DNA of 64,000 nucleotides from contig NZ_CP042412.1 in the NCBI RefSeq assembly GCF_007954505.1, forward strand, positions 2,976,001-3,040,000, read 5' to 3'. This document shows, in pieces, positions 43,242 through 45,985 of the stretch. Both the position numbers and the translations under genes were made by a program. The stretch's first letter is position 1; every line of letters begins with the position of its first letter. The stretch comes from Microbacterium sp. CBA3102 (GTDB lineage Bacteria; Actinomycetota; Actinomycetes; Actinomycetales; Microbacteriaceae). The notes below the pieces were generated by a model that was not told the DNA's origin, ran no database searches, and saw nothing but the letters and a program-made list of their open reading frames with translations.

Positions 43242-43317
43242 TTTCAGTTCCTAAAGTTGGATGGGTACCCGCGGCCGAGGGCGTTTCACGTTCACGCTAC
43301 CGATCGGCGTGCACGCG

Positions 43318-43344
43318 GCGCTGTCCCCTCTTCTGCCTACAGAC
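43318..43344 (-). repeat. 27-bp repeat element, copy 1 (upstream of M23 gene)
   Basis: The plus-strand segment begins GCGCTGTCCCCTCTTCT and ends GCCTACAGAC. It is identical to the copy at 45236-45262 except one base (T versus G at the centre). It ends 76 bases before the M23 ATG. It is not a known riboswitch or promoter that I recognise. Confidence 0.75.
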
Positions 43345-43608
43345 ATGCCATGCGACGCGAGATACGTTGAGAGATCCCCACGCGCGCTCCGGCACGCACA
43401 GGTTCTTTCGTACCGGCGCCCGCGCCGCGATCCTCGTGTCGCCCTTTCGCGTTCTTGAGCCAGCGTGAGAAAGCGCGAAATCAATTGGTTCGGTCGATCT
43501 GTGATTGCTGTCACCGATGGGATTGGAGGTCAGAGAAGCCCCGCAAACACGCTCCAACCGCGGCGCCGCATGCGGACCCCTCCGCGCCGATCCGGCACCA
43601 ATGAGCAA

Positions 43609-43640
43609 CGGCCCCACCCAACCGAAGTTGAATGGGGCCG
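43609..43640 (-). terminator. Probable terminator after the VanY-like gene
   Basis: An 8-bp stem CGGCCCCA / TGGGGCCG with a 16-base loop, 12 bases beyond the VanY-like stop. No strong T-run follows, so it is moderate evidence. Confidence 0.5.
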
Positions 43641-43652
43641 CCGATGCGCTCT

Positions 43653-44675
43653 CTAGACGGAGCCGTAGTTTAGGCTCATTTTGGCAACTCGGGTCTGGTT
43701 GACGCCACCTTGCGGGGATCGCGCCGCCACGAACAAGTAGTTTCCCGCCGGCACCGGAATGATCGTGCTGAATTCGATCTGTGCGACGCCATCCGTCACG
43801 CCCGGGAATGTTGCCGCGAACCCACCGCTGTACACGCCAGTGCTAGCGTGCAGAAGGTAGTACTGGAGCATGAGCGTCTTTTCGGGCGTAAGACCCGTGA
43901 AGTAGGCATGGGTGGTGATCTGATAGAGTCCCGCGCCTCCGGCTCCCCCGGCCATATCGAACACACCCGATGAGAAGTACAGGCGAGTGTTCGATGTCGT
44001 ACCAATCGGCACGGTGTAGTCGCCTTGCTTGCGGTGGTAAATCGGCACGTCATCCTCCGGTAGTGGTGTGGGCGTGGTTGATCCTGAGTACTCCCAGTGC
44101 CACGCCTCTGGGTGAGCTCCGTTCGGTTCCGCCCAGGAGGGATGGAACCATCCGAACTTTTGCGCATTGGCCTTCATCCACACGTAGATGGGATTACTCC
44201 AATCCGTGCGTCCGACGCCGATATCGATCGCGAGTGCCCAGCCGTGGTTGGATGTCCCCGGCACGGCTGCCAGCCCGCAGTTCCCCTGACCGCACCAGTA
44301 ATTGCGGGCTTCAACCTGGCCCGCGAAATCGCGGTAGGCATCGCTTAGCGGCAGGTCTCGTCCCAATGCGGCCCGGAAGGCCTTATTCAAGGCGATCAAT
44401 GCCGTCACAGCATCCGAACGCAACCGTCGGGCAGTGTTCCACGGCACGGTGGACAGCGCTGACAGTGGGATCCTGCCGTTCGCATGCCCGCCCCATGCGC
44501 CCGCCTTGACCACGAGAGAGGCTGCGCTCGCGCTCGTAGGTCTGGAGAAGAGGTCTGCTCCGACTGACGATGCGGCGACGAAAACCCCGGCAGACGATAG
44601 GAGCGTTCGACGCGAGATCCCGTGCGCGCTCATCATCGGGATGTCAGGGGACACAGGTGCGCTCGATTCAGTCAT
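43653..44675 (-). CDS. Tat-exported VanY-like D,D-carboxypeptidase (M15 family)
   Basis: 340 residues. The twin-arginine signal SRRTLLSSAGVFVAASSVG lies at about 21-40. The M15 domain (about 55-200) shows GRDLPLSDAYRDFAGQ, the zinc motif SNHGWALAIDIG and the third ligand in EAWHWEYSG. A short PTPLPED linker leads to a beta-rich C-terminal domain (about 215-340) without a clear name, perhaps for cell-surface binding. It should trim or cleave peptidoglycan stem peptides. It lies 43 bases after the unknown 161-residue gene and is probably co-transcribed with it. Its GC content is lower than the core. Confidence 0.88.
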   Translation of the reverse strand: MTESSAPVSPDIPMMSAHGISRRTLLSSAGVFVAASSVGADLFSRPTSASAASLVVKAGAWGGHANGRIPLSALSTVPWNTARRLRSDAVTALIALNKAFRAALGRDLPLSDAYRDFAGQVEARNYWCGQGNCGLAAVPGTSNHGWALAIDIGVGRTDWSNPIYVWMKANAQKFGWFHPSWAEPNGAHPEAWHWEYSGSTTPTPLPEDDVPIYHRKQGDYTVPIGTTSNTRLYFSSGVFDMAGGAGGAGLYQITTHAYFTGLTPEKTLMLQYYLLHASTGVYSGGFAATFPGVTDGVAQIEFSTIIPVPAGNYLFVAARSPQGGVNQTRVAKMSLNYGSV

Positions 44676-44718
44676 GCTCTCGATCTCGCTGTTCGAAGGA
44701 TGTGAGTTTCTTTGACCG

Positions 44719-45204
44719 TCATACGTCTCCGTAGTCGAAGGCGGGCGCTTGGATGTGAGTTACCTGATCGCTGCTGAAGCGAAGCCTCACGAAGTCGAGT
44801 CCCACTTCGCCTGGCCTCGTGAGCGATTGAGTGTTCGTTGCCTCACGGGCGGTGATGCCGAGGAAGTCCGCGCCCTCTCCGACGTCACGCGCCTCACCTG
44901 CCAGCGCCGAAGCACGATCCGAACCGACTTTGATCCCCTCGAGCGTTGCGGCGTTCACACCACCCACAACCGGAGCGGAGATCGTAATGCTCGCACGAGC
45001 GTCAGTTAGGCGCAGCACCCGCGCGCCTTGCCAATCGTAGAAAGTCACTTCGTATCCGTTCGGATCCTCAGTGATGCTCGGTGAGGATCCGAACGCATCG
45101 GTGAGCGCCTGAATCAGCGCGTCAGGATCGTTGTAGCTGAAGGTGGTCAACTGGTCACCGTCCATCACGGTTACCGCGCTGACGCCAATCGTTAGGTCGC
45201 TCAT
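44719..45204 (-). CDS. Hypothetical protein upstream of the VanY-like gene
   Basis: 161 residues from ATG 45202-45204; the frame remains open upstream through the 27-bp repeat, so a longer start (GTG near 45270) cannot be excluded. No signal peptide, membrane segment or known domain is visible. It contains FSYNDPDALIQALTDAFGSS and DWQGARVLRLTDARASITI, compatible with a small alpha/beta protein. The Shine-Dalgarno is poor. It might encode a modulator of the adjacent hydrolase, but this is only guilt by position. Confidence 0.55.
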   Translation of the reverse strand: MSDLTIGVSAVTVMDGDQLTTFSYNDPDALIQALTDAFGSSPSITEDPNGYEVTFYDWQGARVLRLTDARASITISAPVVGGVNAATLEGIKVGSDRASALAGEARDVGEGADFLGITAREATNTQSLTRPGEVGLDFVRLRFSSDQVTHIQAPAFDYGDV

Positions 45205-45235
45205 GGTCTGAAGCCTACGAACAGATGAGCGCCGA

Positions 45236-45262
45236 GCGCTGTCCCCTCTTCGGCCTACAGAC
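45236..45262 (-). repeat. 27-bp repeat element, copy 2 (upstream of the unknown-VanY unit)
   Basis: 26 of 27 positions match copy 1 at 43318-43344, in the same orientation. It ends 31 bases before ATG 45204. Flanking bases differ, so similarity is confined to the element. A TACACGTGTA palindrome (45266-45275) lies next to this copy only. Confidence 0.75.
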
Positions 45263-45433
45263 GCGTACACGTGTAGCCCACTAGACTGCCCTCCCCCCGA
45301 GGCATGCGGGAGCGAGTGATAGACAGGGTGAGCCGCCACGCCCGGCGGGTAGTTTCGAACCCACAGTCCGTCGCGGGAGACGCGCAGGTTCTTATTCCCC
45401 AGATGTTGCCCAACTCGGTGGGAACACGAAAAA

Positions 45434-45461: not shown

Positions 45462-45533
45462 TGCGCGATACTGGGATCGAACCAGTGACCTCTTCCGTGT
45501 CAGGGAAGCGCGCTACCGCTGCGCCAATCGCGC
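45462..45533 (-). tRNA. tRNA-Val (GAC)
   Basis: 72 bases. The acceptor GCGCGAT pairs with ATCGCGC plus discriminator A. The anticodon loop CTGACAC is closed by CTTCC/GGAAG, giving GAC. The T arm is ACTGG-TTCGATC-CCAGT. CCA is not encoded. Last of three tRNAs before the terminator. Confidence 0.95.
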
Positions 45534-45560
45534 CCGTTGGGGCTATTCAGTTTTCCCGTG

Positions 45561-45631
45561 AGGTGGCGACGGGATTCGAACCCGTGTAAACGGCTTTGCA
45601 GGCCGGTGCCTAGCCGCTCGGCCACGCCACC
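45561..45631 (-). tRNA. tRNA-Cys (GCA)
   Basis: 71 bases. The acceptor GGTGGCG pairs with CGCCACC plus discriminator T. The anticodon loop CTGCAAA gives GCA. The T arm is CGGG-TTCGAAT-CCCG. CCA is not encoded. Middle gene of the minus-strand Gly-Cys-Val set. Confidence 0.95.
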
Positions 45632-45685
45632 GTGTGGATTGACCCCACGTGCGAAGGACCTTCCGAAGAAGATCCTCTGCACTCG

Positions 45686-45758
45686 AGCGGATGACGAGAC
45701 TCGAACTCGCGACCCCAACCTTGGCAAGGTTGTGCGCTACCAACTGCGCTACATCCGC
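45686..45758 (-). tRNA. tRNA-Gly (GCC)
   Basis: 73 bases. The acceptor GCGGATG pairs with CATCCGC plus discriminator T. The anticodon loop TTGCCAA closed by CAACC/GGTTG gives GCC. First of the three minus-strand tRNAs. Confidence 0.95.
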
Positions 45759-45909
45759 ATTTCGTTCCCGGTTGTCCCGGGCACTCATGAAACATTAGCC
45801 GAAGATTTCCCGTCCGCCAAACCCGTTGCGAATCTCGCGCGTGTCTCGCTGACTGGTCCGCGAGGGCTCCGAGCGTCGGGTAGTATCGGTTGACGTACCC
45901 CGCGGGTAT

Positions 45910-45985
45910 GGGCGATTGGCGCAGTTGGTAGCGCGCTTCCTTCACACGGAAGAGGTCATCGGTTCGAGTCCGGTATCGCCCACCA
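45910..45985 (+). tRNA. tRNA-Val (CAC)
   Basis: 76 bases including an encoded CCA (45983-45985). The acceptor GGGCGAT pairs with ATCGCCC plus A. The anticodon loop TTCACAC gives CAC. It is on the opposite strand to the other three and close in sequence to tRNA-Val(GAC). Confidence 0.95.

Follow-up and report, generated by a model that had tools for sequence, protein, structure and literature searches.

Why should two cell-wall hydrolase units of Microbacterium sp. CBA3102 be preceded by nearly the same 27 bp? The window, a 64,000-nucleotide stretch of contig NZ_CP042412.1 (positions 2,976,001 to 3,040,000), holds two copies of a 27-bp element that are identical at 26/27 positions, with a single difference, and that form a direct repeat in one orientation, 1918 bp apart. 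One copy lies 76 bases from the start codon of an M23 peptidase gene (ATG 43241) and the other 31 bases from that of a second unit (ATG 45204), which encodes a protein of no known family followed by a VanY-type carboxypeptidase (Table 1). Length, identity, positions and gaps are as the original prediction had described them. Its spelling of the element, with two variable letters (28 letters), finds no match, and both copies match once a single variable letter is allowed. Two matches occurred in 0/100 shuffles of the window. A search of the complete genome (one contig, 3,886,003 bases), which had been proposed as a check, returned the window's two copies alone when up to 3 mismatches were allowed (0 for the reversed pattern), both before hydrolase units, and a looser pattern that included a -10 box again found just these two (reversed control, 1). 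Judged by the comparisons set out below, the element reads as a promoter element, neither a transposon end nor a leader peptide.

Table 1. Genes, element copies and predicted promoter boxes of the two hydrolase units in the window
Feature	Position	Strand	Details
M23 peptidase with FG-GAP repeats and signal-like N-terminus, 432 aa	41943..43241	-	Pfam PF01551 (E 1.1e-31), PF13517 (E 4.9e-18)
VanY-type carboxypeptidase, second gene of second unit	43653..44675	-	Pfam PF02557 (E 5.6e-11); twin-arginine-like start (by eye)
161-aa protein, first gene of second unit	44719..45204	-	No family match; not signal-like
Element copy 1	43318..43344	-	GCGCTGTCCCCTCTTCTGCCTACAGAC forward, GTCTGTAGGCAGAAGAGGGGACAGCGC gene sense; upstream of M23 gene
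Element copy 2	45236..45262	-	GCGCTGTCCCCTCTTCGGCCTACAGAC forward, GTCTGTAGGCCGAAGAGGGGACAGCGC gene sense; upstream of second unit
Predicted -10 box TAGCGT	43294..43299	-	21 bp after ACAG of copy 1
Predicted -10 box TAGGCT	45212..45217	-	21 bp after ACAG of copy 2
Mirror box TACGTT	43363..43368	+	Outward-facing, 20 bp beyond copy 1
Mirror box TAGACT	45282..45287	+	Outward-facing, 21 bp beyond copy 2

For the 161-aa protein, Pfam and NCBIfam searches gave no hit and PDB sequence matches appeared only at E 0.17 and above. Just past the second unit lie four tRNA genes (45462-45982), three on the minus strand and one on the plus strand.

Across the genus, the element was found at up to 3 mismatches in 14/295 genomes (reversed control, 0), most of which carry one copy each. 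The exact 23-letter core occurred in a single record, from Microbacterium oxydans, in a scan of one genome per species that may leave out records near our own genome. When the -10 box was included in the pattern, 47/366 genomes matched, against 10/366 for the reversed pattern, so weak hits of this search can be chance. Reading the 47 identified 19 genomes with clear sites of the window's type, hereafter the CTGTAGG class, and most of the others carried a palindromic form described below. In other genera of the family the CTGTAGG form was found in 0/196 genomes (reversed control, 3/199). The larger set drawn from these searches comprises 27 distinct CTGTAGG-class sites. Two of them (L048 and L071) look like chance hits, with neither a mirror box nor a signal-like product; they were dropped to give 25 sites but are still counted in the 27 used for the mirror-box and signal counts. 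The 25 include orthologues and hence are not independent.

An M23 or VanY unit lies downstream of 16/25 of these sites. M23 is the first gene in 10 of the 13 M23 units and the second in 3, and VanY is first in 2 of the 3 VanY units and second in 1, the window's own. The remaining 9/25 sites precede signal-like proteins whose Pfam match is absent or below the cut-off (two of the nine, L083 and L085, are assigned through L057, the scanned member of their cluster), and the target group is therefore wider than the hydrolases. By a crude test, 24/27 first downstream open reading frames (ORFs) have a signal-like start, compared to 45/312 background ORFs; the first gene of the window's second unit does not. 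The original prediction, that secreted peptidoglycan hydrolases share a control element upstream, would have fallen had no further copies lain near envelope genes; it is supported by sites before M23 and VanY units elsewhere in the genus, with the control itself being the probable explanation of this arrangement. In one genome (G312, locus L052), three promoter copies lie within ~4 kb, before one M23 and two VanY genes.

The element does not follow the M23 protein family as a whole. Relatives of the window's M23 protein were found in 103/366 genomes, and the element was present in 4/29 upstream regions (30 loci given, G186 left out), so only part of this family carries it. The four bearers are our own genome, G253 (70% identity), G060 (65%) and G280 (56%), and the upstream region of a relative with 59% identity (G001) is without the element. 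Four other M23 relatives (L097, L098, L099, L100) have a different shared upstream sequence, approximately GGATGTTTGCGGATCA in three of the four, and all four have TACGTTTGTA shortly before the ATG; a second kind of control site, with a leaderless start, may lie here.

The anatomy of the sites is that of a promoter with an unusual upstream half. In gene sense, a CTGTAGG-class site reads GTCTGTAGG-N3-AAGAGGGGACAG-CG, with a -10 box of the form TANNNT after a gap of 21 bp. Spacing was measured in a set of 16 sites (consensus GTCTGTAGG-N3-AAGA-GGGGACAG-CG) collected with a pattern that allowed up to 3 mismatches and did not include the -10 box; the copies in G186, a genome of the same species, were left out, sites that share a core entered the set once, and one site that looks like chance (L015, in G191) was nevertheless kept. 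TANNNT stands at exactly 21 bp in 14/16 of these sites and at 20 bp in 1 more, and at none of the other 20 spacings between 12 and 33 bp, which puts the dyad where a -35 box would lie, with a fixed spacing to the -10 box, as in a class-II promoter. The -35 hexamer is poor or absent, as is also typical of that promoter type: no TTGACA-like sequence was found at spacers of 16-19, where the best agreement was 3 of 6 bases, in 2/25 sites, below shuffles. The strongly conserved columns are those of the dyad and the -10 box and, in the CTGTAGG class, of a GT before and a CG after the dyad. The first base of the -10 box lies 6-13 nt from the first start codon in 17/25 sites, a distance that fits leaderless mRNAs, and sites with a start codon at 6 nt mostly have a second in-frame start at 12. 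In the window's second unit the ATG comes 7 bases past the predicted -10 box, making a leaderless unknown-VanY mRNA likely. The other 8/25 sites have their first start codon 21-60 nt away, among them the window's M23 gene at 58.

CTGTAGG-class sites also carry a second, outward-facing TANNNT (ANNNTA in gene sense) on the far side of the dyad. In the 16-site set this mirror box lies at 20 bp in 6 sites and at 21 bp in 9, and none was found at other spacings within 12-33 bp. It is present in 23/27 sites of the larger set, or 23/25 once the two chance-like hits are left out, and in 0/66 sites of the palindromic class, hits at 3 mismatches included. The CTGTAGG class thus has outward -10 boxes on both sides, as a bidirectional promoter does, and we infer transcription from the mirror box as well. 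Among the neighbours listed, no consistent divergent gene was seen on the leftward side. Several sites have a C-rich start there, and at one a nearby hairpin may be the neighbouring gene's terminator.

The palindromic form reads CTGTCCCC-N6-GGGGACAG and keeps the -10 spacing of the CTGTAGG class. The pattern TGTCCCC-N2-AA-N2-GGGGACAGCG-N19-TANNNT, at up to 3 mismatches, matched 120/366 genomes (reversed pattern, 1); 12 of the 120 match solely through CTGTAGG-class sites at 2-3 mismatches, leaving ~108. With a 2-mismatch pattern the form was found in 4/13 genomes of the genus and 2/284 other genomes of the order (reversed control, 0), and both forms seem almost confined to Microbacterium among the genomes sampled. 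In our own genome the looser pattern that included the -10 box did not find it. Palindromic sites lie upstream of predicted small RNAs, of WXG100 genes and of genes whose products are secreted or belong to the cell surface. The genes downstream include polyprenyl sugar transferases (L149, L166), a SpaA-fold surface protein (L060), a CAP-domain protein (L089, where the -10 box is imperfect) and a short NucA/NucB match (L167); the WXG100 match is clear at L186, below the cut-off at L185 and absent at L151. At palindromic sites without a small RNA and with at most 1 mismatch, 5/10 first ORFs are signal-like. Viral contigs gave 0 hits to the exact CTGTAGG form and 26 matches, in 23 contigs, to TGTCCCC-N2-AA-N2-GGGGACA, mostly without a -10 box in the right place. 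Two of these contigs (L137 and L143) do have TANNNT at 21 bp; at L143 the site precedes a protein with a signal-like start (by eye), and at L137 a clear gene is absent. In another (L124), three copies of TGTCCCCCAAAAAGGGGACA lie within a coding repeat of one ORF and, judged by their location, are unrelated to a promoter.

Behind 34 of the 66 palindromic sites read, a TCCCCAGC-type motif occurs within 120 bases downstream. The stretches that bear it are of several kinds, with hairpins and, in many cases, a terminator-like end (by eye), and the small RNAs predicted from them carry UCCCC loops. One such RNA (L041, 1551-1705) is predicted to be ~140 nt long and structured, with UCCCCAGC loops and a strong terminator-like hairpin; it has relatives at L021, L043, L061, L064, L065, L068, L069, L070, L090, L091, L156 and L176 and often adjoins a gene that we take, from its sequence, to be alpha/beta-hydrolase-like. 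Thirteen sequences of one RNA kind align over 147 columns, and at 9 of the 44 predicted pairs both sides have changed with pairing kept; one RNA sequence folds with a z of -4.5. A covariance model (R1) built from the RNA alone, with promoter sequence excluded, matched 13/79 genomes under strict filters, which did not find this RNA in our own genome. Each of the ten strongest of its 16 matches (at least 76 bits) is preceded by the dyad in the same position, and TANNNT follows at 21 bp in 9 of them and at 20 bp in 1. Three of these ten were members of the model, and neither promoter pattern had picked up two of the ten (in G012 and G017). The six weaker matches (60 bits and below) have no dyad upstream.

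Other kinds of predicted small RNA or leader with TGTCCCCAGC-type loops also stand behind palindromic promoters (L066, L047, L165, L170, L174, L175, L178 and L179, and likewise L145, L164, L168, L171, L181, L184 and L192); several lie near a gene that is presumably RadA-like, judged by its sequence, and a conserved 135-aa protein. At L213 and L214 the RNA model matched TGTCCCCAGC-hairpin stretches from which the dyad is absent upstream, and this RNA kind may therefore use other promoters too. 6C RNA is an actinobacterial small RNA with C-rich hairpin loops, a feature that the predicted RNAs share. They are not 6C RNA as far as Rfam can tell: for six loci the search left the RNAs without a match, and no 6C hit appeared at E up to 1. 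The name 6C RNA of Actinobacteria is used in PMC6789036.

We consider it likely that the element is the site of a sequence-specific class-II activator standing in place of the -35 box. Two half-sites would face each other in a 22-bp dyad, CTGT...ACAG, centred ~43 bp upstream of the expected start, and the bound activator would bring RNA polymerase to the TANNNT box that follows after 21 bp. A dyad that replaces the -35 box at base-fixed spacing from a normal -10 box is what one expects where an activator touches RNA polymerase beside sigma. The M23 mRNA and the unknown-VanY mRNA, the latter probably leaderless, would then arise from co-regulated promoters, and the two window units would be local members of a genus-wide envelope regulon, a reading that draws on the same class of site before M23, VanY and signal-bearing genes elsewhere and on the palindromic form before surface genes and small RNAs. 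The element, its conservation and fixed spacing, the classes of gene behind it and the missing -35 box can be read from the sequences themselves; from these we infer that a protein binds, that it activates and does not repress, and that both forms answer to a single regulator. The right half GGGGACAG, the central AA at the same place and the spacing are common to both forms, which suggests a single regulator; a second protein or a heterodimer is possible because the classes share neither their left halves nor the mirror box. By eye, no regulator was seen among the neighbour families common to at least 3 of 38 loci; what these loci share are the targets themselves, genes beside the small RNAs and some common families of metabolic genes. 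At L188, among the neighbours listed, one gene that runs divergently from the site has an HTH_24 match below threshold.

Several other explanations would account for part of these observations. Palindromic sites beside a -10 box suit a repressor equally well, and the dyad might bind one at a promoter that is active without an activator, but a -35-like hexamer is missing at the usual distance and the spacing is fixed to the base. Fixed spacing without a -35 box is expected of an activator that replaces the -35 contacts and less of a repressor, whose site may slide; a repressor operator is worth keeping in mind but unlikely. An alternative sigma factor that reads GGGGACAG as its -35 element would explain the fixed distance to the -10 box and the strong conservation of the right half in both forms. 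This we hold to be quite improbable, however: the -10 box is an ordinary TANNNT, conservation extends to the left half, which in the palindromic form mirrors the right, and the 21 bp that separate ACAG from the -10 box exceed the -35/-10 spacers that we know of.

The remaining two explanations place the element outside transcription control. As a mobile-element end or attachment site, the copies would bracket the 1.9-kb unknown-VanY unit, and their arrangement as a direct repeat beside tRNA genes is in keeping with this. Neither copy overlaps a tRNA gene, though, and between them lie just VanY and the protein without a family match, with no recombinase gene; most element-bearing genomes are single-copy with the -10 box fixed in place, and the viral contigs lack the exact form, leaving such an origin scarcely credible. 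The original prediction had also pointed to a minus-strand frame coding SVGRRGDSA as a possible leader-peptide remnant. The frame exists, open in both copies with a synonymous difference, but 14 distinct related elements differ from the commonest form 4, 14 and 7 times at codon positions 1, 2 and 3, so the third-position bias expected of coding selection is not seen. Most of these differences alter the peptide, and the element sits upstream of the predicted -10 box; we give the leader-peptide option practically no weight.

Returning to the activator reading, its more elaborate version is possible but on the whole doubtful: a single Microbacterium regulator would bind one dyad in two layouts, a one-way CTGTCCCC-N6-GGGGACAG before surface genes and UCCCC-loop small RNAs and a two-way CTGTAGG...GGGGACAG before secreted wall hydrolases, where the hydrolase promoters would also fire backwards, yielding a short non-coding transcript, and the balance of directions would depend on the sequence of the half-sites. 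The 27-bp coincidence has become a testable control element for which the bases to mutate can be named. It picks out, in a common genus, a set of secreted hydrolases that may answer one signal together with further surface genes and with small RNAs predicted here.

Judged by the titles listed, searches of open-licence literature found no paper on this motif. Among known systems, class-II activator-dependent promoters of the LuxR and FNR/CRP type likewise have a dyad over the -35 region, a fixed distance to TANNNT and no -35 hexamer. To our knowledge, no described site combines half-sites CTGTCCCC or CTGTAGG with an N14 that separates CTGT from ACAG, and we know of no promoter design elsewhere with mirrored -10 boxes around a long dyad. 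Bidirectional promoters of Escherichia coli have shared or overlapping core elements, whereas in Microbacterium a regulator-like dyad occupies the symmetry centre and the -10 boxes are ~64 bp apart. PMC12825309 describes bidirectional promoters of E. coli, with pseudo-symmetric DNA expected to start transcription both ways.

The closest working analogue that we found is the CiaR regulon of Streptococcus pneumoniae, in which, according to PMC6560143, TTTAAG-N5-TTTAAG-N22-TSS serves csRNAs and other genes and the regulon is tied to cell-wall integrity. The Microbacterium sites do not belong to that regulon: they do not contain TTTAAG-N5-TTTAAG and are inverted repeats of another sequence. CiaR sites are direct repeats in another phylum, whereas the Microbacterium site is a dyad with a control function predicted from sequence. 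The palindromic form stands before predicted small RNAs and some surface genes, and the wall hydrolases mostly have the CTGTAGG form. What the two systems would have in common is one site at a fixed distance from the start that serves small RNAs together with other genes and is linked to the cell wall (PMC6560143).
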